Source: Castor canadensis | Lineage: Eukaryota; Chordata; Mammalia; Rodentia; Castoridae | Direction: 5' to 3' | DNA length: 64,000 nucleotides | NCBI RefSeq assembly: GCF_047511655.1 | Contig: NC_133394.1 | Coordinates: forward strand, 144,125,343-144,189,342 | Shown here: piece after piece, positions 580-34,057 of the stretch | Layout: each line of letters begins with the position of its first letter | How positions within the stretch are numbered: position 1 is the stretch's first letter | Notes under the pieces: generated by a model | Seen by the model: only the letters and a program-made list of their open reading frames with translations | What the model was told of the DNA's origin: nothing | Databases searched by the model: none | Program-made: the position numbers and the translations under genes

Positions 580-827
580 GCCGGAAGAGGGCTGGATCTG
601 CGGTATACGCATGCGCAGAACTGCTTTTCGCTTCCCAGCTCCGAGGCGCTCACGGAAGTCTCGCGGTATTTCCTCCTCGCGCGGGAATTATTTGAAAGCT
701 CCGGCGGTAAGCACGCCTTGGACGCTTTGAGGCCAGCGGGCAGGAAGAAGTCCGAGAAATCTGCGAAGTGGGGCTTGGGGCTGTCGGTCAGGTGCCACGC
801 CGCGCGGGAAGTGCTCGTCCCGACGCC
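580..827 (+). promoter_or_regulatory. NCAPG: NCAPG-type cell-cycle promoter (CpG-rich, NRF1-like, E2F/CDE and CHR)
   Basis: GC-rich sequence lies directly upstream of the NCAPG start codon. Visible motifs are an NRF1-like GCATGCGCA (609-617), an E2F/CDE-like GCGCGGGAA (679-687) and, immediately downstream, the cell-cycle homology region TTTGAA (691-696). Known biology: E2F/CDE plus CHR pairs bind the DREAM and B-MYB-MuvB complexes, which repress in G1 and activate in G2/M; condensin genes are in that class. The transcription start is not determined. In human this promoter region is shared with the divergent gene DCAF16, but no DCAF16 exon can be recognised here. Confidence 0.6.
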
Positions 828-938
828 ATGGGAGCCGAGAAGAGGCTGCTGTCCGTTAAGGAGGCTTTTCAGCTGGCGCAGCAGCCGCACCAAAACCAGG
901 CGAAGCTGGTGGTGGCGCTGAGCCGCACCTACGGCACG
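828..938 (+). CDS. NCAPG: NCAPG coding exon 1 (condensin I subunit CAP-G, N-terminal 37 residues)
   Basis: The exon encodes 37 residues starting MGAEKRLLSVKEAF and ending VALSRTYGT. It matches my recollection of the human CAP-G N-terminus with about four substitutions, and ends at a good splice donor (GTAAGC at 939) at the expected place, in phase 0. CAP-G is the HEAT-repeat subunit of condensin I that helps the kleisin NCAPH bind DNA during mitotic chromosome compaction. The ATG lies in a good Kozak context (GACGCCATGG). Frame, donor and promoter are intact, so the exon looks functional or recently copied. The next exon, expected to begin MDDKTVFHEEF, and all others are not visible in the window, although the whole human gene spans only about 34 kb. 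This may be a partial duplicate, a breakpoint or an assembly junction. The residue at position 36 is Gly where human has Arg. Confidence 0.85.
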
Positions 939-1177
939 GTAAGCGCCGCGCTGCTCCCCGTCCAGGTCCAGGTCCAGGTCCCCGGCCTCGGCGCCGCCCC
1001 CGGCCCCGCCCAGCTCGGATCTGGGTCGTTACCTTAGTGGGTGATTGTGACAGTTCTTGTGCAAGACCGCAAAGATTTCTCAACTTTGATACCGTCTTAC
1101 CTTGCTACTTAGAGTACTCCCTTGTATTTAATAATCACAGTATTTCTTGTGTCTCTTTAGCAGTCCATTGAATTTTA

Positions 1178-1980
1178 AAACATTTTTATTTAGCATATCT
1201 TAGTTGTACAGGGGGGGGTCATTGTGATACTTCCACATATGCTTATAATGTACCTTGGTTAGGTGCATCCCCACCATCATTCTCCCTCATCCCCTTCCCT
1301 TCTTAAAATGATTTCAGCAGGTTTCAATGTTCTGTCTTCATACAAGCATATAAAGTACATCAACCATCTTCACCCTCCTTTGCCATCGCCATTTGCTCCC
1401 ATACTCCCATTAGTACTCGTTCCCTAACAGGGACCTGGCTTCTATTCCTGTCCTTCAATATTTAAGTGTCTGTTCATTGTTCAAAGGAGTTTCTCCATGG
1501 AATTTCACCTGTGACTATATTATACTTTAACCAGTCTAACCCCTCTACTACTCTCCCTTATCCTTTCCCCCTACCCAGCAGCTTTCAGTGCATTTCTTTA
1601 TACTATCTTCATTATGTTTCAGTATTATTTACTGTCATTCTCTTTTCCTCTCCTGCCTCCCTCTAGCCCCCTCAGACAGTTCAGTAATACAAACATGTTT
1701 TATATATGTATGTATATATACGCAGACATGTATATATAATCATGTATGTATTTATAGATACATTTATCTTTTTCTGAACCTACCTTCTCTTAACATGATG
1801 ATTTCCAATTCCATCCATATACCTGCAAACAACATAATTTCCTTCTTTAGGGCTGAATAATACTGCATTGTGTATATATAATCACTTTTTCTTAATCCAT
1901 TCATCAGTTGTAGGGCATCTGAACTTTTTCCATAGTTTGTCTATTGTGAATAGTTGTTCAATAAACATAGATGTGCAAGT
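1178..1980 (-). mobile_element. 5'-truncated LINE-1 (3' UTR piece) with 12-bp target duplication
   Basis: On the minus strand this is L1 3' sequence. The left edge has the T-rich TTTTTATTTAGCATAT end also seen at 52.2 kb, and the right part contains the common L1 3' UTR complement (...TTGTGAATAGTTGTTCAATAAACAT). Direct repeats CATTGAATTTTA lie at 1166-1177 and 1981-1992 and fix both ends. It sits 240 bp downstream of the NCAPG exon 1 donor. Confidence 0.8.
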
Positions 1981-2629
1981 CATTGAATTTTACAATCTAC
2001 AATTTCATTAAATAGGTTTAATGTATATATTTATATCTGCCCTGTAATGATTTGAATGAAACATATCTCTTGATCATTAACAAATGAGTCAGTGCAAATA
2101 AATGAATCTTTGTTACAAACCAAACACTTTTCTGGTTGATGTATTTATTGTCTCCTTATAACTTAAGAAATAGGAAAAAAGGTATAGAAGTTTAAATTTC
2201 AACTCTGAGGTTTCATATGACTGTTAGCATTTCTTTTCCTGAAACTGCTAATTTCATTACTTGAGAGGTTAATTAGACAGTTTTTTAAAAATTTGCTTCT
2301 CTTCAGGAGTGCAATCAATTAAGCAGAATAACTTGTAAAGTTGTAGAATAACTGTTGACAACAATTGTGTATTTAAAATAGGTAGTAGAGAGGATTTCAA
2401 ATATTCTTACACAAAAATGAGAGATGCAATAGATAGACCAGTTAGCCTGATCTAATCATTAAGCTTTGTAGACAGGTATTGAAGTATTACATTGTACCCT
2501 ATAAATATGTATCCATTATGTATCAATTAAAAATAAAGAAAATTTAAAATGAATTTTGCTTCTCCTGTTTGGATTTTTTTAAACTACTTTTTGATTAGCA
2601 ATATTGACATGGCTTAAACTATAAAAAAA

Positions 2630-2990
2630 GAAATGCACCAAGAATACTCTCTTCTGCTCTAGTTCCCATCCAATTCTATTCCTGATAGTCTACAAGTAAG
2701 CAAACCTTGTTTATTCTTCCATTCTTCATGTACATACAAACATGAGAGTCTACATTCTTGTTTCCCTCCATCCCTCCTTCAGTAGTTTCTGTATTGCTGC
2801 ACTTTTTCACCGAGCAGTATATTTTGGATATTCCTCCGTACCACTATTTAGTTAAACTCACTCATCTTTTTCCTTTCACATATTCCAATTTATACAGTCA
2901 GTCCCTAGAAATGGACACCCGTGTTGTCTCCAGTCTTTGAATATTAGAAAAAAATGCTTCAGTGGATAATGTCACTTCCTCCTTTTGCAG
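2630..2990 (-). mobile_element. Old L1 3' UTR-like remnant
   Basis: AT-rich sequence resembling the complement of an ancient L1 3' UTR, with phrases such as ...CCAATTTATACAGTCAG and a trailing AAAAAATGCTTCAGTGGATA. No ends or target repeats can be fixed. The call is by style only. Confidence 0.3.
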
Positions 2991-3279
2991 GGGTAACTGT
3001 CAGATTCCCAGAATTTGAGAACTGGATCAAAGAAGAAATGTATTTGCAAATGTGATAATATTAACAATTGCCCTTGACAGAGGTGGCCCATTCTACACTA
3101 TTCATCAGAGAATGGAGGGTATTTTTTTTTTGAAAAGGAGTATAATTGAGGGGGATTTTTTTTTTAATAGATGAGAGAAATTATAAGCAGAATCCTAAAA
3201 AGTTTTGGAATATATGTTAGAGTGATAAAAAAAGAAAAAAACCTGGGAAAAAATTTTAAAGGGGAAAAATATTAACTTG

Positions 3280-3432
3280 TGTTTGGCTGGGGTCATGGCC
3301 CCTAGTTCAAATCCCAGTACCACAAAAAATATTGCTGGGCTGGGATGTGGCTGAAGTGGTAGAGCACCTGCCTAGAAAGTATGAGGCCCTAAGTTTAAAT
3401 CCTAGTACTTCCTCCCCACCTCCTCCCCTCAA
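3280..3432 (+). mobile_element. Two ID-type SINE pieces in tandem
   Basis: A fragment of ID tail (GTTCAAATCCCAGTACCACA) at about 3303-3330 is followed by a more complete ID unit starting GGCTGGGATGTGGCTGAAG, with box-B-like sequence near 3390-3400 and a CT-rich, then A-rich end. Confidence 0.7.
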
Positions 3433-3583
3433 AAAAGAAATTGCTGTGTGATATGAAGGCTTAGTGTCAAATGGCAGTATTGAATTGGGACCATTCTTTT
3501 AAAAAACTGATACATTTCTCTAAGCAAATTCAAGGATATTTAGAAAAGTCAAACTTTTTGTGATCAAAGTCTATACTGCCTTA

Positions 3584-3750
3584 AACCGAGTGTGGTGGTT
3601 CATATCTGTAATTTCAGCACTCAAGCAGCATGTAATTCTAGTACTTGGAAGGCAGAGGTGGGAGTTTGAGGGAGAGTTTGAGGCTACCCTGGACTACATA
3701 GCAAGTTCAAAGTCAGCCTGAGATACATACTGAGAACCTGTCTCAACTCT
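3584..3750 (+). mobile_element. B1-type (7SL-derived) SINE
   Basis: A degraded 7SL-related unit: GTGTGGTGGTTCATATCTGTAA at the 5' end, GGAGTTTGAGG in the middle, and GAGAACCTGTCTCA before the tail. It contains an internal partial duplication (two copies of the TGTAATT...CAGCACT-like segment). Confidence 0.75.
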
Positions 3751-4476
3751 CCCACCCAAATCCACTCTAAAATCTGTACTACCTTGAGCTATGACAAAAG
3801 TAATTCAATCTCGGGGAACACATGGGTAGATCTTACACAAGTTTGTTTTCCATAGTTTCTTCTACTGGATATATAAAGTAAGAATTATTAAAGGGTAAAG
3901 ATTTTAGCTTGAACAGTTAATACCTTGGAATCTTAGTGCTGTGGCCAAAGGCTTTTATCAATGTAGTTTGTGAAGGGTTTGTTTTATATTTCTGGTGATC
4001 AATAAAACAGTATTTCAAGAAGCATTTGTTCATTGTATTAAATGAACTATGATGATCTGTAAATATGAACCAGCAGTAGAGTGAGAAACAGAACTGAGAG
4101 CAATTAATTACTTCATTTTACCAAACAGAAGGAAAATAATGAGTGAGAAAGATGAAAGCAATGACATTTCAAGCAATTTTAATTATTTTACTTCTTGAAT
4201 ATATTCTGGAAATTTTGTCAGTTTTTTTTTCTAAAAGAAAAAAAAAGATAGCAAACTCAAGTTAATACGCAAGAAAAAATTTCATTCATTGATGTATCTG
4301 AATAGTATAAAGAAACTGTCTGCCCCATATCTGTCCGTTATGATTTCACTCAATTCGTCCCGCTCATCAAAAGGCAGCTTTTATTCTAGGGAGGTATGGT
4401 GACAATTAGAGAAGTATTTCAGCCCAATTTGTGTATCAGCCTCCCAATGTCAATTTTTATTAAAAGTTTTCTGGGT

Positions 4477-4605
4477 CAAGCCAGGCACCGGCCGCTCACA
4501 CCTGTAATCCTTGCTGCTCAGGAGGCAGAGATCAGGAGGATCGTGGTTTGAAGCAAGCCCAGCAAATGGTTTGTGAGACCCTATCTCAAAAAAAAAAAAA
4601 AAAAA
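4477..4605 (+). mobile_element. B1-type SINE with long A tail
   Basis: A 7SL-derived unit (GGCTCACACC-type start, TGTAATCC, GGAGGCAGAGATCAGGAGGA, GAGACCCTATCTC) ending in 17 or so A residues. Near-matching direct repeats TCTGGGT(C/T) at 4470-4477 and 4606-4613 mark the insertion. Confidence 0.8.
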
Positions 4606-5557
4606 TCTGGGTTGAAAACCATAAGGTCTTATATCATTTAGAGAAAATCCAGCCAGGGGTTTAAAAATGTAGGTAAATATTTGTTATGTTAAAGTGACCC
4701 TATTAATATTTTTATAGGATAAAATATTAGGGTTGTAATTAGAAGCTGATTTATTAGATAAGGTTAGTTTTAAGTTAACAACTATATGAAACTCCAGTTT
4801 CAGGCAAATATATTTAAATGAGTGTTCTACTTGGGAGACAAAAGACTTTTTTTTTTTTTGGCCAAAATTTAGTGTGCTTGTTATTTGGCAAATATTTCAG
4901 AAGAGGATTATTTTGAGATTATATAAAATATATATTTAGTATGCCTATTTGTGAAATTAGCATTATAGCTTTTTTTTGCATGAATTTTAGCCACCTCATG
5001 AGTTATTATGAAAGTCTTAAGTTCTGAATTTGGGGAAAAGCAAATGGTTATTACAATGCCACCTGAGAATAAGTTTTGATTTGTTTTTGTTTCAACACTG
5101 AGGCACAGAGCAATGGCGTTCAATTTTTATTTAGTGTGACAAATTCTAGAGAAGTGTGGGAAATATGCCAGAAAATGCCCAGATTGGTAATATTTTTTAA
5201 TAAAGTTAATGAAGCCAATCCCATTGTACTGGAAGATAAAACTTCAAACATGAGAATACCTGAGTCCCGGCTCTTTCAAGATTTTAGACCTATGGATAAT
5301 GACTTACGTCTTTCTTCAAGGTAGGCGTAACTTCATAGTTTTGATTGGAAATTTGCAGCACTTGGATTTTTTCCTTATTACATACATAAAGCATCTACAT
5401 GATAAGCACACTAAAGATATATCCTGTCCAGTGGGAATTCTCTGACATGGACATTCTATAATTCAGTTCAATATTGATACTAATCTCACAGAATTTGAAC
5501 CAATCTCACAGGTTAAGGGCTCAGTGCCCAATTTTACAAGACTGCTCCCACTTCAGA

Positions 5558-5978
5558 CTAACGTAGAAAATAGACGGGATGAACCAGTTCAGGCTGTAAT
5601 ACATGTATACATGGAAATGTCACAATGAAACTCCCTGTATAGCTATCTTAAACAAAAATGTCATTTTTCAAAAATGGAGAACAGGAAGGAAAACAGTTCC
5701 TGTCTGGAAGTTGGTACGGGTGGGAGCGGAGAGGATATAAGGAAAGGGTATAGGAGGGTGAATATGATGGAAATATCTTATACTTATGTGTGAAAATGAA
5801 AAAAAGTCCTGTTGAAACTATTCCAGGAATGGGGGAAGGGAGATAAAGGAGAATGATGGAGGGGGTGAATTTAACTATGATGTATTATAAGAACTTTTGA
5901 GAATGTCACAATTTACCCCCAGTACAATAATAATACAATAAAAAATGCTTGAATGACAAAAAAAAAAAAAAAAAAAAA
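5558..5978 (+). mobile_element. 5'-truncated LINE-1 3' end with poly(A) and ~20-bp target duplication
   Basis: Plus-strand L1 3' UTR (ATACATGTATACATGGAAATG...AACTATGATGTATTATAAG...) ending in a run of about 20 A residues. Diverged direct repeats of about 20 bp, AAGACTGC(T/C)CC..CTTCAGA, lie at 5538-5557 and just after the A tail (about 5977-5997), which supports one insertion event. Confidence 0.75.
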
Positions 5979-7029
5979 AGACTGCCCCTGCTTCAGATGC
6001 TTGCTGCAAGTCTCAGGGATCTTTTAAGCTACTGGCACTTGTGCTTGGCTGACTCTAAATTCAGGGGTTCCCACAATTCTCCTGCACACACTCTGGTTTA
6101 TAATTTGATAGAATGACTTACTTAAAAAACTCCGGAATGTGCTATATTTACTATTACAGTTTTAATGTAAAGGATACAACTTTGAGAATAATCAAATATA
6201 AAAGACAGGGAAAGGAATGGGAGACAGGACAAAGCTCTCATGCCTTCTCTGCATGTGCTATCCTCTCAACACATCTGTGCATTCCCTAGACTGGAAGCTC
6301 TTTTTTTTTAATTCATTTATTCACACGTGCATACATTGTTTGGGTCATTTCTCTCTCCTGCCCCCGCCCCTACCCTCTCTCCTCTTCCCCCCACCCTTTC
6401 AGGCAGAACCTGTTCTGCGCTTTTCTCCAGTTCCATTGAAGAGTAGAAATAAGCTATAATAAGAAAGACATAGCATTTTTGCTAGTTGAGATAAGGACAG
6501 CTAAACAGAGAGATTCCTAGCATTGCTTTCATGTACAAATGTGTTAGGACCCATGTTGACTCATCTCTAACTGAGCTTTACACTAGTTCCTGATCCCCTT
6601 CTCGTGTTAACCTCTGTTGCTTTAAGGTTTCTGTATTGGAAGCTTCTTGAGCCTGGTTGGTTGAGAGCTTTTATGTGAGCTTCATTGAGTAGACATGGTT
6701 GATTAATCATTGGCCACTTGCTTGAACCCAGACTTGATCTGTCTCCCATTCTCACACATGGGGGATGGGTTGAAAGTGCCAACTCTGTATATACCTAACT
6801 GGTTTTCCTGGTGATCAGCCTCCATCCTGAAACTACCTAGGGTTCCTCTCTACCCTCCACCTCCCATGTGTCACCTCATTAGCATAATTGAAAGGAAAAC
6901 TATGAACTACAAAATATATTCTTGTCACTCAGGAAATTCCAAGGGTTTAAAGAGCTCTGTACTAGGAACCCAGGACAAAGAACAGATGTATTTTTATTGT
7001 ACCTCATAAAAGGATAATAAAATGAAAGC

Positions 7030-7450
7030 ACATACTCAAGATCCAAGTTAAGAAACAAAATGTCCAAGTAGCTTTTATACCTCCAGTGTTTCTTTCTGAA
7101 TATATTCCCTCTTCCCAGAGGAAACTACTATCTTGAATTTTCTATAGTTTGCTATAGATTTAAGGTTTATCTAGATGTATCCCAACTATATGTGTTGTAT
7201 CTTTGTCTCTCATTGATTTCAGTATTAATGGAGTTGCACTGCATGGATGCTTGTGTGATTTTTCCCTATCTATGACTGCTTCTAAGAGTAACCCAAATTT
7301 ATATACTACAGTTCTTCCCTTGTCACTGATGTATTGTATTCTGTTTTAGATACACAGCACACTTGAATTATTCATTATATTCCTTGCTATTCTGAACTGA
7401 ACTGTTATCAGTGTTCTCAAACATGCAAAAATTCCTTGGCTAATATGCCC
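7030..7450 (-). mobile_element. Ancient L1 3' UTR-like remnant
   Basis: The sequence reads like the complement of an ancient mammalian L1 3' end (for example ...GGAGTTGCACTGCATGGATG, then ...CCTTGCTATTCTGAACTGAAC and ...CCAGAGGTAGGG). Heavily diverged; ends not defined. Confidence 0.35.
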
Positions 7451-7458
7451 AGAGGTAG

Positions 7459-7835
7459 GGTTATGAACTGAATTTTCTTACCTCAAAATTTGTGTGTTGA
7501 AGCCCTAACTTCCGGTACCTCAAAATGTGACTTTATTTGAAGATAAGACCTTCAAGGTTAACTTTAAAGTTAAAATGAGGTGCATATGTGGGGTGCTAAT
7601 CCAATCTGACTGATGTCCTTAAAAAAAGCAGTTAGGACATACAGAGAGATTCCCAGACACACACACACAGAGGAATGGCCATGTCAACACATCTCAAGTG
7701 GGCAGCCTCAGAAGTCAAACCTGCTGGCATCTTGATCTTGGAGTATAGCTTTCAGAATTGTGAGAATATAAAATACCTTTCTATTGTTTAACGTACCCAG
7801 TCTGTTATTTTGTCATGGTGGCCCTAGCCAACCCA
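7459..7835 (+). mobile_element. MaLR LTR fossil, MLT1-like
   Basis: Hallmarks of MLT1-type MaLR LTRs in order: TTGAAGCCCTAAC, TGTGACTTTATTTG, CCAATCTGACTGATGTCC, the late AGAATTGTGAGAATATAAA and ACCCAGTCTGTTATTTTGTCA. A solo, old, degraded LTR. Confidence 0.75.
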
Positions 7836-7930
7836 TAGTTAGTATTGCCAGATGGTAGAATTGTGCAACACATGGCTAAATATTGTTGAGATTTTTCTAA
7901 AGACGTTGGACCAACTTAGAATTTTATGGT

Positions 7931-8285
7931 TTAAACATGGTTTGTCCATTCCAAAAACCAGTGTTGAAATTTAATCCCCATTATGAGATACTAAAAGGTG
8001 AGACCTGATGAGAATTTTAAGGGGTGATTAGGGCTCTGCTCATGAATGGGCTAATCCTTTCACACAGTTAGTTGACTGATGGATCATCTTGAGGATGGGT
8101 TTGATATAAAAGCCAGTTTTGTTTACATCTCACCTTGTGATGTCTTGCACTGCCCCAGGACTCTGCCAATAAGAAGGCATGTGGACCATAGACCTTGGGC
8201 CAGAAGTGTGAGGCAAAATGAACCTCTTTCTTTGTAACTTACTCATTCTGTCATATTGTACTATTAGCAACAGAATAGAACAGAT
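7931..8285 (+). mobile_element. MaLR LTR fossil, MST/THE-like
   Basis: Hallmarks are GTGTTGAAATTTAATCCCCA, GGTGAGACCTGATG, ...CTCATGAATGGGCTAATCC and the final GAGGCAAAATGAACCTCTTTC. Same orientation as, and about 100 bp from, the MLT1-like LTR at 7.46 kb. A solo, degraded fossil. Confidence 0.75.
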
Positions 8286-8639
8286 GTAGACTTATTCTAC
8301 ATCTTTGCCAAAACCTGGTATTAATAGCCAGTCTGGTGGAAATGAATGAAATCTCATTGTCATTTCAATTGTTCTTTCTTGTTTTTACATCAGTAAAATG
8401 CCTTTTCATATCTTTTGTTCCACTTCTCTGTTGTAATGTTTGTTTGTTTTTTTCTTAATGATGCCTTGGAGTTAATGTTAATAAAAGCAAGATTTATTTG
8501 TCCTTTAATGGCCTGTCCTCCTTTATGGCTTAAGAAAGTCTTCCCAACCTCTAGAATAAAAAAAAAATGTCTCTCAAATTTTCTCTGAATGTTTTACCCT
8601 TTATATCTTTAATATTTTCACATCTTTAATCTACCTAAC

Positions 8640-8770
8640 ATTGTTTTTTGTTTGTTTGTTTGTTTGAGTCAGCGTATCGCTATATAGCCCAGGCTGGCCT
8701 CGAACTTTCAATCTTCTTGCCTTGGCTTCCTGAGTATTGGGATTACAAGTGAGTACTACCACACCTGCTT
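8640..8770 (-). mobile_element. B1-type SINE
   Basis: Minus-strand 7SL-derived unit: T-rich tail (TTTGTTTG repeats), then GCCCAGGCTGGCCTCGAAC, CTTGGCTTCCTGAGTATTGG and GGATTACAAGTGAGTACTAC. Confidence 0.85.
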
Positions 8771-9296
8771 TGGAAATTTGGAAATTGATTTTTTTGTGTT
8801 GAATTTGAGATAGGTATGCAATTTCATTTTTTCATATATTTTTTCATTATTTATTGAACTCTTTTTCTCATTGGATTGATAGTTCCAACTCTGTCATACC
8901 TCAAGTCTGCATGCAGTGTGATTTTTCTTTCTGGCCTCCAGTTTGTTATTATTTTGCATCACATTGTCTTGATTGGGTTCTATAGACGTGTAGTAATTGA
9001 ACATTTTTATCTTACATGGTAATAAGTGTATAATTATGTAATATGTCATGATCATGAGCCTCTACTGTGAGGGAATAGAGCTAAGTGTGTATTTTGGCAT
9101 AGGAAATTTGTTTTCTTCAAAGGCCAAAAACAACTCTTTCAAAGAGAACACAAAAATTAAGCCAATGAGGACCTTTAAAAAAGCCATTTCTAATGTAGGA
9201 CCTGGGCTTTGAGCGTATCTTTGGTGGGGGGCTTAGATGAAAAAAGATAGGCTGTGAGTTGATAATTATTGAAGCTGATTGAGTATGTTAATTAAA

Positions 9297-9700
9297 CTTT
9301 TGTCACTGTGACAAAGCACTTTATAGAACAACTTGAAGAAGGATTAATTTTGGCTCACAGTTATAAGGGTTTCATGATTGGTCAGCTCTGTTGTTTCTGG
9401 GCTGTGGTGAAACAGAGCATCATGGTGGTAGGGCATGGAGGAATAAACTTGGTCACCTCATGGCAGCCAGGAAGCAGAGAGAATGTCAGCTCTAGTGGGC
9501 TCCTCCTTTTCTACTTTCCATCTGGACCCCCATGCCATTGGAGAGTGCAGCCCACATTCAGGGCAGGTCTTTCCCTTGCAGTCACTTGCTGCATGTCAGT
9601 TGTCTCTGGAAACACTCACAGACACACAAGAAGTGTTTTACTAAGCTCTGAGGCATCTCTCAACTCAATCAGGTTGACAGTCAAGATTAACTATCACATT
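9297..9700 (-). mobile_element. Rodent MaLR-type LTR fossil (antisense)
   Basis: The left edge TTGTCACTGTGACAAAGCAC and right edge TTGACAGTCAAGATTAACTA are the complements of the ends of the sense copies at 19.7 and 22.1 kb, so the three belong to one family. A MaLR assignment is inferred from the general layout. Old solo LTR. Confidence 0.6.
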
Positions 9701-10629
9701 GAGTGCATTAATTTTATAGGTTTCAGTGATTTATTTTCTTGATATAGAATGTAACACTTTATTAGGTACTGTATTGGACCATTAATGACTAATTGTCTTG
9801 TCTTAGGTTTGTTTTCTTATCTCAGAGAATTCTGTTTCTTCAACAAGGATTAGTGATATGTAATACCTCAGGTAACAGGTATGTAAAGTTGAATTGAAAG
9901 TCATACGTTTTTAAATGACTTATTATGAAAGTATTCATACATACACAAAAGGAAAGAATTGTGTAATTCATCCAATAACTCACCATCTTGCTTCAATATT
10001 TGGCCAGTCTTGTTTCTATTCCCTCCCCCTGTCCATACATGCATATCCTCCATGCACTCCACTCTAGTTAGCCTGAATTAGTATTTTTTTCAACAAGAAT
10101 TATTTTGAAGCAAATCTGACATAACATTTCATCTACTATCTAATGGTTTGGATTTTTCTAATTTTTTCAAAAACGTTTTTGTACTTGTTTCTTTGGATTG
10201 GGAACTAGCTATATCTGTACATTTCATTTGGTTGGTATTTCTTGTATCTATTACAACCTGTAACAGGAATCCTCTCCCCTTTTTCCTTGAACTGTCAAGG
10301 AAATTTCATTTGTTGTGGAGATTGGGTCTTTTGTCTTGTTGAATTACTCATATTTTGTATTAAACTGTTTTCATTCTCATTCTGTCATTTACTCTGTTTC
10401 ATTATGTATATGTCTTATAGACTGACAGTAATATCTAGATGCTTAACTAGATTGAGGTTTGGTTACTTTTTAGTGTGTTGGGGGTAACAATTATGTGATT
10501 GTTTATAAACAACCTGTAACATAATATCATGAGGTGAAAGGCTTTGATGATATTTTTGGAAGTGTCTTAATATGCATACATGAATTAGGTATTATAGCAC
10601 AATCATATACTTTCCATTAGCTGTATTCT

Positions 10630-10760
10630 TTTGTAATGCCATCTCCTTTAACCTCCCTAGTTTTACGGATAGAAAAACTAAGACCCAGAGAGTTAAATAT
10701 TTGCCAAGGCCAAACAGCTAATTAAATAGTAGAAGCAGGGTTTTTTCCTACCCTCCACCT
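10630..10760 (+). mobile_element. MIR SINE remnant
   Basis: MIR-style signature: ...AACTAAGACCCAGAGAGTTAAATATTTGCCAAGGCC-like run followed by ACAGCTAATTAAATAGTAGAAGC. Ancient, diverged. Confidence 0.55.
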
Positions 10761-12706: not shown

Positions 12707-12729
12707 CAAAGGATGCAAATAAGCAGGAA

Positions 12730-13540
12730 AATAGAACCCATAAGGAGAAGACAGATGACATGTTAGGATTCACAGACATATTGTTATTCCAAATACTCAA
12801 AAGTTAAGTAGGAAGATGGATGGCAAACTGTTAGAGATGAAAACTACACGATGTGAAAATATAAAATACGATAGGTGGAATTAATGGCAAATTAGGCATT
12901 ACAGAAGAGCATTCATGAGTTTAAGGACAAGAAACTAAAATCAAAATAGATGGTCAGAGAGTTGTGCACAATTTTAAACAGCCTAATATTCCTATAATGG
13001 GACAGGGTGGGGTGCACAAAATATGTGAGGAAACAATAGTTAAGAAATTTCCAGATTTGATGGAAACTAAAGCCACAAATCCAAGACCAGTGAGCTCCAA
13101 GCACAAGAACCATGGAAAAATCTGCACCAACGCACATCATAGTCAAATTGTTTAACAACAATGATAAAGGTAAAATCGTCTTTAAAATTGAATTGATTTT
13201 TATTTCCACCTGTAGGGGGTGCACCATTTCTGGAAGTACTGCTATACCAGATCAATGCAGGGAGTGGATGGAGCAAGCTGCTATTCCATCTCCTATTTCC
13301 AAAAATCCATTTAAGGAATGGATACCACACTTGGTCTTAGCCAAAAGGCTGGGAAGCAATAATAAAGATAAAAACTTAAGAGATGGAAGGGGGAAACGCA
13401 CTGGAAGTGCCTTTGCTTCCAACTTGGAAGCAAACTTACAGGGGTGAACATGACAACAGATTTCTTGTGGCAAACAATTCAACTGAGAGGTATGCAGCAA
13501 ACATATTTCAAATACTGGGAAAAACAATCTAAAATTCTAT
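12730..13540 (+). mobile_element. Old L1 fragment hosting the U2 pseudogene
   Basis: The flanks of the U2 copy read as one old L1 piece: AAATTTCCAGATTTGATGG, then ATCTGCACCAACGCACATCA, ATAGTCAAATTG, and after the U2 insertion the continuation GGGGTGAACATGACAACAG and ...AATTCTATGCTC. This resembles the ancient mammalian L1 region with ...CACATCATAATCAAA... The U2 insertion splits it. Confidence 0.5.
13217..13360 (-). pseudogene. U2 spliceosomal snRNA retropseudogene (RNU2 copy, internally deleted)
   Basis: Read on the minus strand this is U2 snRNA. The 5' end at 13360 (ATTGCTTCCCAGCCTTTTGG, with changes from the functional gene) passes through CTAAGACCAAGTGTGG and the segment GGATTTTTGGAAATAGGAGA, and ends at GGTGCACCC (13217). 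About 45 nt of the middle (the branch-site-pairing downstream and Sm-side stem region) is missing, and substitutions are scattered, so it is non-functional. Imperfect 17-bp direct repeats, CAATGATAAAGGTAAAA (13159-13175) and CAATAATAAAGATAAAA (13357-13373), support retrotransposition into an old L1. About 41 nt between the left repeat and the U2 3' end belong to neither. Confidence 0.9.
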
Positions 13541-14425: not shown

Positions 14426-14426
<1 letters not shown>

Positions 14427-22430: not shown

Positions 22431-22434
22431 TTGA

Positions 22435-22660: not shown

Positions 22661-22682
22661 ACTGATCTAAATTTAGCTGTAT

Positions 22683-23032: not shown

Positions 23033-23109
23033 TTATTTATCATATCCTTGTGTTTGGCACTTAATACCATAACTTCCATGGGCTCTGCATCCATGCCATT
23101 GCATTTGAA

Positions 23110-23330
23110 AAAGTTTTAAAATGAAAGCATGGTTAGTAACTGGAATAGTATTCCTTAAACTTTAGTTCCATAGAAATCATATGTAGAATCCTAGGCTTTG
23201 CCCCAAATGCATTCAGATTTCTAAGGTTGAGTCTTGGATATTACATCATAAGAGTACCTGATGTGATTCTGATATAGCCTCTCCAAGGATCATACTTTGA
23301 GGACACTGTAAAGGATGAGGCTATTAAGAT
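23110..23330 (+). mobile_element. hAT-Charlie-like (MER20-type) remnant
   Basis: Fits the pattern of short hAT-Charlie elements: CTTAAACTTTAGTTCCATAG, ...AGAATCCTAGGCTTTGCCCC, ...CCTGATGTGATTCTGATATA, ATCATACTTTGAGGACACTG. Ends not defined. Confidence 0.45.
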
Positions 23331-24454: not shown

Positions 24455-24670
24455 AATACTTAGTGTGCCAGGCACTGTGAAAGCCTGTTACACTAATTAA
24501 CTCACTTAATTCTCAAAAACAGCAATACGAGGTATTATTTCTTCTCACAGTTTATAAGTGAGGACTCACACTTGTTTTTAGAGGAAAAGATTTTCCAGAG
24601 GTCACACAACAAGGAAGGATGGAGCTGGGGTGGAGAACTAAATCTGATTCTGATCTCAGAGATCTAACAC
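24455..24670 (+). mobile_element. MIR SINE remnant
   Basis: Clear MIR order: CTTAGTGTGCCAGGCACTGT, ...TTAACTCACTTAATTCTC, GAGGTATTATTTCTTC, ...CCAGAGGTCACACAAC, then ...CTAAATCTGATTCTGATCTC. Confidence 0.8.
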
Positions 24671-24984
24671 ATTGCTATTCTTCCCATTAACACTCAAAAG
24701 TGAATTAGTTTGGGAAATAAATATATGCCATTGTTTTAGGTTTTTGAAAATGGGATGCCATAAAGTCAAACAAAATATGACAGATCTTGGTAATTCCAAC
24801 TAATGGAAATCCCTGTTGTATGCATGTCTAATTTATTGGCAAATTGGTTACCTTTTCATTTCATGGTGATTATTCCAGTTTGTTTTCAGGAATTTCCCCC
24901 CAAACATTTTAGTTATTACAGTAGAATAGACTAGCACTTGCAAAGTGTAGGAAGCAATACAGCATTTTTTGTTTTTGTTTTTGC

Positions 24985-25110
24985 TTGTTTCTTCTTGGTT
25001 CTTTGAGACAGAGTTTAACTATATAGACCAGACTGGCCTTGAATTTGTGATCCTCCTGTCTCAGCCTCTGATTGCTGGAATTATAGGTATATACCACCAT
25101 GCCTGGCCAG
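24985..25110 (-). mobile_element. B1-type SINE
   Basis: Minus-strand 7SL-derived: GAGACAGAGTTTAACTATAT, CAGACTGGCCTTGAATTTGT, CTCAGCCTCTGATTGCTGG, ACCACCATGCCTGGCC. Confidence 0.85.
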
Positions 25111-25449
25111 CATTGGGTTTAATGTTTATTAGCAATGTGACTGATGCTAGTGCCTTGGTTTACCTCATATGTAAAGTATGGTATACTAGTAAAACTTTCA
25201 TAAGGTAGAGATACAGAAAATATTTTCTCTATCAAGATATAATGAATCTTAGGTATTTAGAACACTGCCTATCATTTATTTAATATTCAATAAACGTAGC
25301 TTTGCATTTGTGATTACATTTGATTTCCAAATAATTCTGAGATAGGTAATATTAATATGTCTATTTTCATCTAGAAAATCTTACTAAAATTTTCACTGGT
25401 ATATTTTGCTTTCCAGGATCCTGGGTTATAGACCATGAAAAATAAGAAG

Positions 25450-25535
25450 GTTAGGGGTCAGGGATGTAACTCCATAGCAGAGTGCTTGCTTAGCATGCGT
25501 AAGGCTCTGGTTCAATCCCAGCACCTCGAAAAATG
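25450..25535 (+). mobile_element. ID-type SINE
   Basis: GGGGTCAGGGATGTAACTCC, GCTTGCTTAGCATGCGTAAG, GCTCTGGTTCAATCCCAGC, ending ACCTCGAAAAA. Confidence 0.8.
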
Positions 25536-25619
25536 TAAGATGGTTCAACTTTTGTTAAGAGGCGCTAGAGACTAAGAGAGAAATGAAATGCCATATTATT
25601 TGTCAAATGAGTCCTTTGT

Positions 25620-26560
25620 CAGAGATCTCTGTTTGTCCCCTATGTCTTTCAACTTATTCTATAGTAATGGATTCCCTGGGTTTTGGCTTGGTAAATGGCT
25701 ACCCAGAATACATAGTCATACTTCCTATCTTCCTTGCAACTCAGTAAGCTATGTGGTGTAAGTTCTAGTTTATGGAGTATAAGTGGGGGTGTCATTCAGA
25801 AACTTTCTTGCGAGATTGCTAGAGTGTATAAACTCTTTGACTCTCTTCTTCCTTTCTTCCTTTTTACTGCCTAGAATGAAAATGCCCACCCTCTTGGAAC
25901 TTGAAAATGAAGATACACCCTAGAGTTGGTAGCACAATGAGTTGGAAGGTACTTGTGACCCTATAAACAAAATGAAGTAGAGCTGCCAAACCAAGCCTGG
26001 TATTCACATGAGTGTAGTAGCCAGCTTTCAAGAGTACCTGAAATAATCCTGGTGTCCGGTATATACACTCTTGTGTAGTCTTCTCCCACACTGTACTGGG
26101 AAGTCATGTGTCTGACCAGTAGCATAGAAGTGATGATGCGTGTCTTCTAAGATTACATTATAAAAGACTGGTTGATCTTCGGTGTTCAAACTCATTTTCA
26201 CTTGTTCTTTTTCTCGGCACTCACCTTGGGGAAATCAAACTGCCACAATTCTTAGAAAACCGTTGAAGAGTCCTGCGTGGTGAGGACCTGGGAACCTTAA
26301 TATTATAGCTTGTGAGGATCTGCCACCTCCCCACAGCCACTTGAGCAGATTTGTCAGTCCCAGTTCAGTCTTGAGATGACTGCAGTGCTGGTTGCCCACT
26401 TAGTTGCAACCTCTTAAGAGAACCTAAAGTAGAACAATGCAGTTTAAGCCCCTCCAGAATTCCTGGTCCTTTGAAATGGAAATATGTTGCTGTCTTAAGC
26501 CACTAAATTTGGGGTAATTTGTTCTGCAAGAATAAATGATTAATACAAATACATGAGAAA
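25620..26560. other. Repeat-like stretch of unresolved family
   Basis: Moderately repetitive-looking sequence ending in TCTTAAGCCACTAAATTTGG and ...AATAAATGATTAATAC, a phrase common at the 3' end of ancient LTR or L1-like elements. No coding exon recognised. I cannot assign a family. Confidence 0.3.
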
Positions 26561-26769
26561 AAGAAAATAAAACCTTATCTTGTACAAGCCACTATCATTT
26601 TGTATTTTCTGTCACTTGTACCCAAACTAAGGTCCTTTTTTAGTTAAATTAATTTGTAGAATTAACCTAAAGAAATAACTTTCAAGGTACTATACTGAGG
26701 GTTCCCAGAAATTGAGAACAGGCAAAGGCCAAAGAGAACATCTTATCCAACCTCCTTATTTTACAGGTA

Positions 26770-26930
26770 AAAAGTAAGAGCTACCATTTAGTATTTCTTA
26801 TGCCCGGCTCTCTGCTTAGTTCTACACATTTCATTGTCAGGATAATCTGTGAGGTAGGGACTCATTCCATTTTACATCTGAAGAGACTGGGTCCATACTC
26901 CTACCCATTTTACTTTACAGTCTCTCTACC
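26770..26930 (+). mobile_element. MIR SINE remnant
   Basis: GAGCTACCATTTAGTATTTC, ...CTGCTTAGTTCTACACATTT, CTGTGAGGTAGGGACTCATT, TTTTACATCTGAAGAGAC. Confidence 0.65.
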
Positions 26931-27249
26931 GTTAAAGAGTACTTTAAAAATGATTCCAAGGATGATAGAACACATACTTAGTGTGGGTTCTGTACCCAGC
27001 ACCAAATAGAAAACAAATCAATTATAACTATATGTCAGAGTTTTGTTATAATCTTGCACACTGGGGAAAAGATCTAAAGTAGTCCAAAGAATCAACTTGG
27101 TAGATATATTTTTGGACAAGTGGATGAAGCTAGTTATAGTTTAACTGGTTACATAAAGAAAATAATGACTGATTAAAGATCACCTGACTCTTGACTGGCT
27201 TATCTGGTTAGTTGGTGACTGGTTTCTCAGAATAGGTAAGCACTTATGT

Positions 27250-27420
27250 TTTTGCATGTGTTGTTCTTTAATAATATTAATTATTTAGCACTCCTTATCA
27301 TTCATTAGCATCCCACACCAAGTCTGCAGGTGAGAAAACTGAGGCCTCAGAATAGGCAAGTGATTAGCTCACAGGCCCAGGTAAGCAGAGGTGAGACCAG
27401 AACTCAGGTCAGTGTTTTAT
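27250..27420 (+). mobile_element. MIR SINE remnant
   Basis: MIR core and tail: AGGTGAGAAAACTGAGGCCT, CAAGTGATTAGCTCACAGGC, CAGAACTCAGGTCAGTG. Confidence 0.65.
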
Positions 27421-27522
27421 ATATTAACTAAGCTGTTCCAAAAAAAAAGACAGTTTTCAGTTATTGAAGAGGAATCCCTGTCTTTCCACCTACATAGCTC
27501 TCAGCATTTTAAAATTTTTAGA

Positions 27523-27612
27523 GAGATGGGCTGGAGGTGTGGTTCAAGTGTTAGAGCACCTGCCTAGAAAGCCCTTGGTTCAAACCCCAGTACCACCAAC
27601 AACAAAAAATTT
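27523..27612 (+). mobile_element. ID-type SINE
   Basis: GGGCTGGAGGTGTGGTTCAA, AGCACCTGCCTAGAAAGCCC, GGTTCAAACCCCAGTACCAC, then an A-rich tail. Confidence 0.85.
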
Positions 27613-28039
27613 TTTTTCAGTGAGTTGTTTTATTTAACTGGGAATATTTTTTTGTACTCTGTTTTGAGATTTTTGTCTTTTTGTTTTCATCAGGGGTAGG
27701 AAAGAGGAAACAACTGATATTTCCCTAAATACTTTTTTTTCCTCCTCTCTTTGGACAGGGATTAAGCAATCGCCTGCCAGATTTCATCATTATGATGAAT
27801 GTAAACCCGACTATTTACAGGAAGCTTATCATTCTTTTTCATTCCAGAAACTTGTGATACTTTCCCTTACTACATGGTGCAAACAGTTCACTGAGTCATC
27901 CATAAAGCTAGCTACCTTTCCCTCAGGCAATACACACTACACCCTGCAAGCCAGCCCATAACAGAGCCTTCGATTGTTGGAATGGAAGCCAAAGAGTTGG
28001 TGTTGAGTTAGCAATATTTATTATGAACAAGATAGGTAG

Positions 28040-28130
28040 GGGCTGGCTGGGGATGTTATTCAGTAGTAGAGAGCTTCCTAATATGCACAAGACCCTAGGT
28101 TCAGTCTCCAGCTCTGCAATAAACAAATGA
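28040..28130 (+). mobile_element. ID-type SINE
   Basis: GGCTGGGGATGTTATTCAGT, CCTAATATGCACAAGACCCT, AGGTTCAGTCTCCAGCTCTG, AATAAACAAATG tail. Confidence 0.75.
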
Positions 28131-28804
28131 CACACCATAAAAAAGATAGTGACAGCCCAGATATGTTTAAGAAACAGAAAGCTCTTGTCTCTGGAGTGTT
28201 TGTAAAGAAGGATGGAACCATTTATACATTAAATCTCCAGATTTGTAAGGAAGCAAAGTATGGTTTTATCATTATCGAAACTACTTGTCATCAAAAGGTG
28301 ATCTAAGGAATAAAGTTTATTCCATATTTGGACACTTGAGTTGTTTATGCTGTAATTTACATTCTTTTGGGAGAAGGAATTGGAATTCTGGGTAAAGAGG
28401 TGCCCCCAGGTGAGCCTCACCTAATACCCAGTTTAGGAATGACATCTTGCTTCAGGGACCAAAATGAAAACCCTTGAAAGGTAGAAAACAATTGTTCAAA
28501 GTCTGGGCTTCAAATATAGCACATTGGGATTATTTTTTTCTGAAAAACCGTTTATGTACACTGAAAAACAAAAATTTTTTTGTAAAGGTTTTAAAATGTC
28601 CATTCATTCATGTAGCAAGAAATATATTTTGCCTACTATGTATGCCTGCCACTTGTTCTGGTGATATGGATAAAGGCAGATATAAGCACATTACAAAACC
28701 AGGTACTTAAAATTGCCAAGAAATGAGATAAAGTCATTAGTAGATTAGTCTTTTATTCATGTCATAGTTCTGATTTTTTTCTTGTGTTAAAAATATTACA
28801 TAGT

Positions 28805-29090
28805 GCTCTTTCCAGCCAGTGCAGAGTGATGGGCATCTCTTGGGACAATGGGCACAATTGCTGCAAGATGAGTGCAGGAGAAAGCTCTGCTGTAAGAAGT
28901 GGAAGTATGTGCTGGGTTGCCCTGCTCCTGACACTAAGATTGGCTCCCACCCCAGGCACATAGCCCAAGTTCCAGGAGGCAACAAGAAGTACTTCATTCT
29001 GGGGCTGGCTGTGGGGAACTTCTATGGTTCTGATCCTCAATAAACAAGGATCATTGATGTCATGTACAGCACATCCAATAATGAAGTGGG
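28805..29090 (+). pseudogene. RPS8P: RPS8 processed pseudogene, 3'-truncated
   Basis: A retrocopy of the ribosomal protein eS8 (RPS8) mRNA. It opens with the RPS8 5' UTR (CTCTTTCCAGCCAGTGCAGA, 28805), followed by an ATG at 28829 and a MGIS.DN.H-like start. The best-preserved part encodes KKWKYVLG.PA.DTKIG and VPGGNKKYF.LGLAVGNF, matching RPS8 KKRKYELGRPAANTKIG and VRGGNKKYRALRLDVGNF. Homology continues as TRIIDVMYSTSNNE and fades near 29,090, so roughly the last 60% of the coding sequence is absent. A frame slip after the start and an in-frame stop (TAA, about 29,041) make it non-coding. There are no introns, as expected for a retrocopy. Loss of the 3' end, not the 5' end, is unusual for a target-primed insertion; the adjoining antisense MaLR LTR at 29.2 kb suggests later deletion or replacement. 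Confidence 0.88.
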
Positions 29091-29209
29091 GAGCCACCTC
29101 TAGGGAAGAAAGCTCCATACATTAGAAAAGTGCACAGCATGTAGTACCCATATTCCAATCCGGTGCTCTATCCTTCATGTCAAGAATACAAGCCATATGC
29201 TCCAAATAT

Positions 29210-29590
29210 ATTGCCTTAGTCAGCTTTCTGTTACTGTAACAAATACCTGAGATAAGTTATAAAGAGAAAAAGTTTTGTTTGATGGCCACTTTTGGAGGTT
29301 TTGGGTCATGATTGGTTAGCCCTGATGCTTTCGGACCTGTGTGAGGCAGCAATCATGGTGGCAGTGGGAGGCAAAACCTCATCTCATGGCTGGGGCATGA
29401 AAGAGGAAGAAGAAGGGGCTGGTGTCCCAATATCTCCTTCAAGGGCACACCCTCAATGACTGGAAGACTTCCACTAGGCTCCACCTTTTAAAGATTTCCC
29501 CACCTTTCAATAGCATCATAGGAGGGGGACCAAGCTTTTGGGGGACACAGGCAAACTTAAAGATCTGAAAATGGACACTAAGACTCATTG
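29210..29590 (-). mobile_element. MaLR-like LTR fossil (antisense)
   Basis: AGTCAGCTTTCTGTTACTGT, AACAAATACCTGAGATAAGT, ...CATCTCATGGCTGGGGCATG, ...GGACCAAGCTTTTGGGGGAC. Complement of a MaLR-style LTR; solo and degraded. Confidence 0.6.
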
Positions 29591-30496
29591 TGGGCACAAA
29601 AGAGCCACTAATCAGGAAAATGCCCAAGGTAAGAAGACATGTTCTCAACTTTCTAGCCTTTAAAGAGTTCTGGTAACAACTTTGGCTGGCCATGAAAACC
29701 TAGCCAAAGCAAGGGTGTTCTGTGTGTGTCATGCAGGAAATGGCACAGGGACTTGATGGTGGTCTAAGGAATAGAACCCGGGAAGAACTCATTGAAATGG
29801 CTACCTAATGACAAGCTGGGGGACTTCTATGTCAGAAGGATTAGATCATATAGCAGGAGATGGAGCCAAAGATCGCTAGGCACAGGTATAGGAAGCATCT
29901 TGGTATGTCTGTGAAGGAGGATGGGCCTCCCAGAAACTGTACATAATAACTCTGGTATTACAGATTAGAGGTGGTTAATGTTAATTAAATCAAAAGCTTA
30001 AAAAAATCTTAAATGTTTTCCAACTCATAATTTTGGGAAATTTTTTGTTAAAATTTGGCGGGATATGAAGTTCCCCTCCAAATCAGATACAGCTTAGTCA
30101 CTAAAAAACAGTGGACGGCTACTGTTATCATTTTGATATATGTAAAAAAATATTAAAACTGCTCATTTATAAGAAAGGTATATAACTGCTTTCTATTTCA
30201 GAATCACAGCTTGCAAGTTTCTGTTATAATTCTAGAAATATTTTCTCCATAAATGAGAGCATATTTAACAATGTTCTTTCTGCTTTTTTTTTTTTTTTTA
30301 CTTGAGAGTGAATCTTGGCTTCATTTCACATCAGCAAATAGAGATCAAGCTTATGCTTTTTATAGAGGCATATTTTTCAATCAAATGGATGTGCCATAAT
30401 TTATCTAATACCCAGTATCTTACTGATGGACATTTATTGTTCCATTTTTATCAGTGTGAGAAAAATTGTATTGTGTCTTTGGAACAAGTCTTTCTT

Positions 30497-30865
30497 TCTG
30501 TATTGCTATGCCTGATTTGTATCTCCTCAAAATTCTTACCTTTAAGCCCTAGCCACTGATACCTGGAATGTGACTGTATTTGGAGATTTGGCCTTTAAAG
30601 AGGTGGTTAAGTTAAAAGTGAGGTAGTTGGAGGGACAATCCAATATGACTGATATCCTTATAAGAATAGGATCAGACATATACACACAGAGAGAAGGAGG
30701 CCATCTGCAAGCTGCGGAGAGAGGCCTCAGAAGAAAACAAACCAGTTAACACCTTGTTCTTGGACTTCTTGGACTTCAGACAGTGAGAAAATAAATTTCT
30801 GATGTCTCCGTTAAAGTCACCCAGTATGTGGTATTTTGTTATGGCAGTCATAATAAATAAATAAA
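30497..30865 (+). mobile_element. MaLR LTR fossil, MLT1-like
   Basis: TATTGCTATGCCTGATTTGT, GGAATGTGACTGTATTTGG, CCAATATGACTGATATCCTT, ...GACAGTGAGAAAATAAATTT and GTGGTATTTTGTTATGGCAG. Same subfamily style as the LTR at 7.46 kb. Confidence 0.75.
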
Positions 30866-30975
30866 CATGGCAAAGAGCAACATGTCTATAATTATATAGT
30901 AAAAATCAATGGGGGAAATAAATTCAGTTTAATTGAAACAAAATTGTGCAAGGATTTGGGGGAAACTATAGACAA

Positions 30976-30977
<2 letters not shown>

Positions 30978-31014
<37 letters not shown>

Positions 31015-31023
31015 TACACACAT
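30978..31023. repeat. (AT)n then (CA)n compound microsatellite
   Basis: Alternating AT from 30978 to about 31006, followed by CACACACATACACACATA. Confidence 0.95.
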
Positions 31024-32539
31024 ATGTACATATATTTTATTGACTAAGGTCCTTTTGTATATGAAGTATGGTAAAGGAAAATTGAAAAAAAAAACATAGC
31101 ACTTGGCATTGCATTTTGACTCACTAGCTATCTTTTAATACCATTATTCATACTCAAACCTTACTCTTTAATCAACATAACTTGCTGCAGCAGTTTATGA
31201 TTGGCTATTTTGACAGGACAGTGAGGATGAACTCTGGTACTGAGAAAGGACTATAATTCCAAATGTTTTATAATTGCAACATTCTTTCATTGCTTAGGTT
31301 TATAACCAACCCTGTACTGGGAAGTGCTGTCACTTACTGGAATTAGAGTTAAATGTCTTAGGATTGATTGCTCTTACTAAAAATTGTTCTCTCCCAGAAC
31401 CCTCAAAACTAAAGTTGGAAAATTCTACAGAAAAGGCCTTGTGTCATTATATTTTTAGTTTGCCAGGTAATGATTTAACTTTTTCTTTTTTTAAGCTTTT
31501 TCAGAGAGATTGACTGGCAGCAGTGGTGAAGAGAGAGACCTACCAATCTTACAAGGCACTCTACCATGTGGATTTTCCACTGCGCTGCTCACAGCTTATC
31601 CAGTTTCCTTGTTGTGGTCAATGGCCAGATGGCCTGTTAGAATTTGTCTTGCGTCATATCTGAAGAAATCATATAGAGAGGTAACTAAATGGACAGCCTT
31701 CGCCCTGGTAGAATTTCCTATCTGCTCTAGTAGTAGGCATCACAGTGACACCAACCAATGTCTGTGTCTCAGTTAAACTTCAATATAATCATATTTTCTG
31801 TGTATCAGATGATTAATTGCTACATTACTCAGCAGATGGACATATGTTAACAGCTTCATTCAAAAGGAGAAATGACCTACAGGCCTTTTTAAAAAATCAC
31901 TTTCTTTCATTTTGGCATCTTAAGCAAATTTCTTGAAACAGCCAGAGTCCAAAGTAGCTGTTACTACTCTTTGACCTACTACACAGCTTCAGAAAGGGGT
32001 TACAGTGAAACTGTGTGTGGATAGATATTTTTGTTGTTAAACACCTTCTGAATGTGCCTGGTTCCAAGGATAAGCTAGTGAACACCACAGATGCAGATAG
32101 GTGAATGGGAAGCACAACATTCGGTGTATTAAAAGTCAGTTAAAAAGAAGAAATTACAAGAATGCCATGAAGTTCCTTTATTCCTTCTTTCTTTATTCCA
32201 CAAATATTTGAGGGTGTCTTTTGAGGGATATTAAAGTACAGAGACAAAGCCCTAGTGAAAGAGCAAAGGAAAATACAGGGAAAAAAACAGCATGAGAGGG
32301 TAACAGGGAGAGGGAGAGAGTAATCTGTCAAGGACTTTGTCTCTTTTTCTGTTCCATAAGCATTTGTTTCTTTAGGATAAACTATATAAAGCCATCTCTG
32401 TATCTCAACTTACATAGTAACTGGGAGAGTACTGTCAGACCCAGATTTATATGACCATATTATTCACTTCTTAATTTGTGAGCCCAGCAAGTACCAGAAT
32501 GTTGATAGTTTGTGTTTTGTCTAATATTAATACTTTACA

Positions 32540-32765
32540 GACAGTATTTACTTTGTGCCACATAAACCTATAAGCACTTAAAATTCGCTTAATCCTCACA
32601 AAAATTCCATGAAGCAGGTATTTTTAATCCCTATTTTATATAAAAGGATACCAAGGCACAGAGAAGTCATGAAATTTGCCCAACGTCCTACAACTAGTCC
32701 TTGTTGAAACCAGGAACCGAACTTCCATTTCTAGAGTCTGTGTTGCCTACTGCTCACAATGTCTG
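32540..32765 (+). mobile_element. MIR SINE, relatively complete
   Basis: Near full-length MIR: TTACTTTGTGCCACATAAAC, TCGCTTAATCCTCACAAAAA, CATGAAGCAGGTATTTTTAA, AAGGCACAGAGAAGTCATGA, GCCCAACGTCCTACAACTAG, ACCAGGAACCGAACTTCC. Confidence 0.8.
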
Positions 32766-33973
32766 TCAATAAATGACACATGGTAAAATTAGAACTAAGC
32801 AGATACTGCAGTGCAAGTCTCTTTCTCTTTCTGCTCCATCATTCCTATTCGTGGAACCCCCTGTTGTCATGAAATCGTGGTAGATAACGAGGGGCTACAA
32901 GGGTAAACACAGCCTATCTGGTTTTTGCCCTCTTGGAGCTCATGGCAATTAAATAACATACCCTTCCCAAGGCCCTCAACCTTGCCTATTTCTTCTGTTT
33001 CCCTCCCTGAATCATCAAGGGTTGATGATGGGTTGAGTGGAGAAGGAGTCTCCTGGAGAGCTGGGGCGCGGACAGATGACCTATGGGGATGAGGCAGCTT
33101 GACCTTTCTTTGGGCAGTGATTTAAGTCTCTTCCTTTCTCTGTGAGCCTCGGCTTAAAATGGCGGGACTTGTACCAAGGCCGTTTTCCTGCCCTCCCCCA
33201 CCCCGGGCCCATCCGGCTAATCCACGATCCTGCGGTCTGTCCTGCGCTTCAGGACCCTCGGGTCACTGGCCGGACAATGTCCTCGTCCCTGGGCTTCTGC
33301 AGCCCAAGCGGCCCTTCCTCCCGACCCCCATGTTGCCGCGGGCCCAGTCACGCGCGTTTCCCGTGTGGACCACACGTTCTTGGGAGCGTCTAAGTCCTGA
33401 TCACTCAGCCCCTAGGCGGGAGCCAGGCGAGGCCCTGACCAACATGGCCAGGGGTGTGTGTTGGGGGGGGGGGCGACCCTCGAAGACCTCAGTATGGCGA
33501 ATGGCGGCTCGAGGGGGTTGGGTTGCGAGCGCGCGCGCGCGCTGCCCACCCAGGCCAAGGGGTCACTTGGCCAGGCGCCCAAGCCCGAACCCCGACCTTT
33601 GCGTCTGCTGTCTCGGCCTCATGGGGCTGGTGGGCGGCGCGGCAAGGCCGAGAACGCCCCCAGAACGTTTTTAGGAGGCGAAACAACAGGGAGACTCGGT
33701 TTCTTGCCGCGCACACTAAGACAAGGAATTCGGAGAGCGGAGGCGGGAGGTGGAAGACGCCGGGAGCCTGCCCGCGCGCCGGTCACGTGCGCCGCAGGCA
33801 CCGCATGGCGTCGGCCCGCGCGCGCCCGCGTCTCGGCCGGCCCGGCAGCTCGGGCGCGCGCGCCGACGGGGCGGGCGCATGCGCAGGGGGGCGCGCCGCC
33901 TCTGCCCCGCGGCGAGGGTGTCTATGGAGAGGCGGCGGCCGCGGCTGCTGAGGCGGAGGCTGAGGCAGTGGCG

Positions 33974-34057
33974 ATGGCGCCCTTCCCTGAAGAAGTGGAC
34001 GTCTTCACCGCCCCACACTGGCGGATGAAGCAGTTGGTGGGGCGATACTGCGACAAG
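33974..34057 (+). CDS. FBXL5: FBXL5 coding exon 1 (residues 1-28)
   Basis: Encodes [11 protein letters not shown].. to ..GRYCDK. The start ATG (33974) follows GGCG and is the conserved FBXL5 start. His15, the first iron ligand of the hemerythrin-like domain, is encoded here (TAPH). The exon ends in phase 0 at donor GTAATA (34058). Confidence 0.97.

Follow-up and report, generated by a model that had tools for sequence, protein, structure and literature searches.

The stretch of DNA analysed here, called the window throughout, comprises 64,000 nucleotides of the genome of the beaver Castor canadensis (C9:144125343-144189342), taken from an assembly of 2.81 Gb in 181 contigs. Near its left end lies the first coding exon of NCAPG, placed 33 kb upstream of FBXL5; as the preliminary description had recognized, this exon has 37 codons and an intact splice donor, and it corresponds to residues 1-37 of human CAP-G, the condensin subunit 3 (E 1.2e-15). 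The features on which the argument rests are the following:

577..653, + strand: older upstream flank, read as unconverted, homologous to C9:142209789-142209692 (51/77 = 66.2%)
654..1014, + strand: young tract, running from the proximal promoter through the 5'UTR, exon 1 and its donor to 76 bases into intron 1, matching C9:142209691-142209331
681..696, + strand: candidate CDE (GCGGG, 681-685) upstream of a candidate CHR (TTTGAA, 691-696), read from the sequence by eye and unscored
828..938, + strand: coding part of NCAPG exon 1, 37 codons from the ATG, ending in phase 0, with a GT donor at 939
3995..4186, + strand: remnant of NCAPG exon 2 with two stops in frame, aligned to residues 38-100
5067..5346, + strand: remnant of NCAPG exon 3 with three frameshifts and one stop; 5100-5281 aligns to residues 110-170
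33974..34057, + strand: FBXL5 exon 1, 28 codons, ending in phase 0

The remaining FBXL5 matches extend over 43189-59315, on the same strand as the window NCAPG exon 1. We take the CDE/CHR-like pair to be a cell-cycle promoter arrangement. The observed/expected CpG ratio is 0.96 over 560-1013, the same figure as for the young tract; it is 0.86 in the unconverted flank (560-653, 7 CpGs) as against 0.31 in the sequence just upstream (460-559). Resting on seven CpGs, the level in the flank hints that the island may have stayed unmethylated and the promoter long active. Positions 1-240, just upstream of this promoter, presumably represent the end of an endogenous retrovirus LTR, and approximately 28810-29700 resembles, to our eye, a processed ribosomal protein S8 pseudogene that has been interrupted.

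The peptide encoded by the window exon 1 is identical at 37/37 positions to the NCAPG protein of Castor canadensis (P0077, 1010 aa), and the same 111 bases are found in the window copy and in the working gene. Of 952 NCAPG proteins in all, 120 were listed, and among those P0077 alone shares all 37 residues, the next best sharing 35. Separately, two felid proteins, P0155 of Panthera onca (LOC144616200, 120 aa) and P0152 of Prionailurus iriomotensis (39 aa), have starts resembling NCAPG exon 1, with 32/37 and 33/37 residues respectively identical to felid NCAPG, three changes common to both, and continuations that differ from NCAPG; the tail of P0155 had no match in the DNA stretches compared. 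Judged from these proteins, cats may also possess a second copy of exon 1, on a contig about as long as the felid NCAPG contigs.

The working gene and a decayed copy

A genome search with NCAPG returned 20 matches. Nineteen of them make up a single reverse-strand gene (C9:142169723-142209517); the twentieth is exon 1 in the window. The second NCAPG with an exon 1 of its own, for which the preliminary description had recommended a search, is thus present in the same assembly. The matches of this gene follow exon order from the first to the last residue and cover 949 of the 1010 residues; the uncovered 61 fall in two places with runs of N close by, and the protein P0077 is itself full length. 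The two copies of exon 1 lie 1.92 Mb apart in opposite orientation, and the starts of NCAPG and FBXL5, taken from match coordinates, are 1.95 Mb apart and divergent. BST1 matches C9:144089357-144111435 (- strand), upstream of both the window and FBXL5. In human, BST1 and FBXL5 lie near each other with FAM200B in between, and the beaver genes appear from their match positions to be near each other likewise. A DCAF16 protein query found no match in the 70 kb around the working NCAPG. The ordered exons of the working gene and the position of BST1 upstream of FBXL5 contradict the earlier suggestion of a rearrangement with its breakpoint in NCAPG intron 1, and nothing in the sequences compared requires a breakpoint inside NCAPG at all.

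The same description had reported that no downstream NCAPG exons precede FBXL5. This does not hold: decayed counterparts of exon 2 (3995-4186) and exon 3 (5067-5346) follow the window exon 1 in order and on the + strand. The decayed exon 2 begins at residue 38, directly where exon 1 ends, and keeps 24 of 63 residues; its acceptor reads TG in place of the AG of the working gene. Its DNA is homologous to the working gene over 3953-4208 (E 1e-25), and a protein-to-DNA search places NCAPG residues 40-99 at 4001-4189 (E 3.7e-4) across two stops. In exon 3, 30 of 60 residues survive; its DNA homology has E 8e-28, and the protein-to-DNA search gives a weak trace of it at 5100-5258 (E 0.55). Frameshift-tolerant alignment with beaver NCAPG gave scores of 115 for exon 2 and 114 for exon 3, against control maxima of 52 (reverse complement), 57 (reversed sequence), 53 (complemented sequence) and 50 (window from 34 to 64 kb); under stricter penalties the two scores were 91 and 85. 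Other high scores at 4124-5691 were read as parts or run-on of these same alignments. Exons 1, 2 and 3 are therefore colinear with the working gene (starting at 828, 3995 and about 5067), and introns 1 and 2 are retained. The latter feature led us to reject a processed retrocopy as the source. Also rejected was the idea that the decayed exons lie inside the working intron 1, which at 939 bp is too short for the 1.35 kb over which they extend.

No convincing exon 4 or later exon was found in the window, including a search for colinear exons 4-6 by frameshift-tolerant alignment. Two residual matches were not counted as exons: residues 240-256 at 9802-9852 score 42, where 30 null stretches gave no more than 38 but another control gave 43; residues 720-746 at 25458-25540 score 51, against at most 43 in the control, and lie far from exon 3, the exons in between being absent. 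The latter region resembles a SINE. A genome search with 3953-5346 returned, among the best 40 of 2721 candidates, only the window itself and dispersed repeats; as this search missed even the exons of the working NCAPG, another decayed copy may exist. The tree of the decayed-exon protein was uninformative, with 119 sites and a pseudogene branch length of 1.1. Taken together, the matches describe what appears to be a copy of the NCAPG promoter and exons 1-3, situated between BST1 and FBXL5 and inverted relative to the working gene.

Two small-RNA-like sequences were also observed. A full-length SCARNA8-like sequence at 4314-4446 (- strand; 133 bits, gathering score 53) lies inside the pseudogene intron 2. 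The stretch around it has relatives of 85-95% identity at seven places on other contigs, and it looks like a dispersed retroposed copy. A U2 snRNA-like sequence at 13214-13360 (- strand; 99 bits) is probably a pseudogene.

The 361-bp tract and its edges

The divergence between the window copy and the working gene is partitioned unevenly. Over 654-1014 the two are identical at 357/361 positions (98.9%), the mismatches being restricted to 679, 713, 735 and 801, so that exon 1 and the first 76 bases of intron 1 show zero differences. The tract and the working gene agree in all 25 intronic codons, among them a repeat with CAGGTC as its unit; therefore, selection on the protein cannot explain the identity. 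Outside the tract, the exon 2 piece is identical at 165/254 positions (65.0%) and the exon 3 piece at 186/275 (67.6%), whereas 20 shufflings of the exon 2 piece gave a mean of 43% and a maximum of 51%. The part of the left flank at 577-617 reaches 78% (E 0.001), and two short, weakly supported intron pieces have 74.6% of 71 and 71.2% of 59. The Kimura two-parameter (K2P) distance of the three larger flank pieces is 0.43-0.51. The four main pieces together offer 967 sites with 208 mismatches, and the longest run of matches is 217 (213 within the tract, the remainder arising from the joining of pieces). In 10,000 permutations the longest run reached at most 59 and in none (0/10,000) the observed value, indicating that the mismatches are clustered.

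At its left edge the alignment is gapless and in register, with 630-1014 corresponding to 142209715-142209331; it is at this edge only that register is seen directly. To the right of 1014, no homology to the working intron 1 is seen up to a weak piece at 3430-3504 (E 0.007), after which exon 2 follows. This right edge had been placed at 1013-1014 before the genome comparison, from the translation of exon 1 and the intronic read-through, which matches the 73-residue JGI metagenome protein P0122 for 62 residues and then departs from it. The read-through of the working NCAPG is identical to P0122. All four tract mismatches fall within its first 148 bases, a clustering that is compatible with nested events, as weak evidence.

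Annotated as a "hypothetical protein" on 3 JGI contigs, P0122 corresponds to beaver NCAPG exon 1 continued into the following intron, and probably represents host DNA mistaken for a microbial gene. A comparison of the exon 1 read-through with viral contigs and plasmids found no relative.

The copy accordingly combines segments of two ages. The decayed exons keep 54 of 119 residues, and a neutral-decay simulation places them at about 0.4 substitutions per site. In simulated decay of at least 0.2 per site, all 37 exon codons remained unchanged in 0/4000 runs, and likewise all 62 with the read-through; at the decay levels of the flanks (0.3-0.4 per site), all 62 codons were intact in 0/4000 at each level. 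In contrast, K for the tract is 0.011 (four differences in 361), which, at the usual mammalian substitution rates, suggests that it was copied within the last few million years. The K2P distances of the flanks suggest that the duplication itself is far older than the tract, and it probably predates the beaver family. The earlier proposal of a partial duplication of the NCAPG 5' end hence stands in outline, but not as a fresh event: the copy is an old one in decay, in which no more than 361 bp are young.

Origin of the young tract and its implications

We posit, with a probability of about 0.85, that the window contains an old, 3'-truncated, unprocessed NCAPG pseudogene whose promoter and exon 1 were recently overwritten by interlocus gene conversion. 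Under this proposal, a truncated NCAPG duplicate would have arisen upstream of FBXL5 and decayed, after which a non-reciprocal conversion would have transferred 361 bp from the working NCAPG, an inverted copy 1.92 Mb away, to the pseudogene. The direction is suggested by the tract exon 1 matching the conserved protein while the surrounding pseudogene is decayed. A review reports average tract lengths of 200-300 bp (yeast) and 287-296 bp (hamster cells), with an efficient segment of about 200 bp, and describes conversion as occurring mainly above 80% identity while being possible below it (PMC3924818); a human study considers the rate below 88% identity likely negligible (PMC3790853). The distance of 1.92 Mb is unremarkable, since human intrachromosomal conversion tracts were on average 14.4 Mb apart in that study (PMC3790853). 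The limit on the proposal is that the present flanks, at 65-68%, lie below the identity usually needed. Earlier rounds of conversion might have kept the CpG island similar enough for exchange, which is the weaker part of the reconstruction; alternatively, repair could have copied the island by template switching. The result is ordinary in kind; what is unusual is an exchange between copies whose flanks today fall far short of the identity that such events normally require.

That alternative, in its full form, is a templated insertion, in which break repair or replication template switching copied the 361 bp without classical homologous recombination. It accounts for the sharp edges, the low flank identity (65-68%) and the abrupt end of homology at 1014; yet the tract occupies the place of the pseudogene's exon 1 and is in gapless register on the left from 630, and we consider this origin unlikely, if worth keeping in mind. 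An artefact in which working-promoter reads were assembled into the pseudogene is a good deal less probable still. The sole outside sequence, P0122, carries the tail of the working gene, as such an artefact would have it, but the window has no N in an assembly of so few contigs for its size, the left edge is in register inside the old copy and the tract has four differences of its own, which also makes the misjoined assembly once suspected here unlikely. The CpG level of the flank could be taken to mean that exon 1 and its promoter were merely preserved by selection within a dead gene; against this, the edges are sharp and the first 76 intron bases are identical down to the copy number of the repeat. 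That identical intronic part refutes preservation by selection unless it is itself functional, and we regard the idea as very improbable. Scarcely credible, finally, is a recent duplication or inversion that broke within NCAPG intron 1. A second near-identical exon 1 in opposite orientation, 1.92 Mb away, is what it would leave, but here decayed exons 2-3 follow the exon, the working exons are in order and BST1 lies upstream of FBXL5. Segmental duplications are defined by at least 1 kb at 90% identity or more; only 361 bp here attain 98.9%, and the other homologous pieces have 65-75%, which does not amount to a recent one.

As for function, the decayed exons would exclude a full NCAPG protein from the window copy, and the refreshed promoter might at most drive a short or non-coding transcript. 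It is a long shot that repeated conversion kept the promoter and exon 1 alive over tens of millions of years, acting as a cell-cycle-controlled promoter upstream of FBXL5. Were this true, a non-coding RNA or a chimeric transcript would be expected; as the first exons of NCAPG and FBXL5 share a phase 0 end, splicing of the former to FBXL5 exon 2 would keep the reading frame. From their arrangement as an inverted repeat, the two tracts could also mediate inversion of the 1.9 Mb between them, and because exon 1 is identical in both copies such an inversion would not break NCAPG. More generally, the locus illustrates how a reading of sequence alone can see a broken essential gene in what is a converted pseudogene. 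It also offers a clean natural case of ectopic exchange, involving a promoter CpG island in inverted copies whose surroundings have diverged far past the usual limit.

A word search of the 2017 beaver genome paper (PMC5295618) found neither NCAPG, condensin nor segmental duplication. A search of open-licence papers, judged by titles and the starts of abstracts, turned up no report of this locus. LCORL is a neighbor of NCAPG. Segmentally duplicated LCORL retrocopies described in equids (PMC10249811) resemble the beaver locus in being extra copies of this neighbor gene, and differ in being retrocopies, whereas the beaver NCAPG copy keeps its introns. With unprocessed pseudogenes in general, the copy shares ordered exons and introns, a promoter, stops, frameshifts and a lost splice site; unlike them, it keeps a functional-looking promoter and exon 1, as these have presumably since been overwritten. 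A further parallel is interlocus conversion between a gene and its pseudogene, as exemplified by CYP21A2 and CYP21A1P. Like these exchanges, the beaver tract is short (361 bp), sharp-edged and non-reciprocal, over a distance that is not unusual; it departs from them in running from the gene to the pseudogene and in being set between flanks of 65-68% identity instead of more than 80%.
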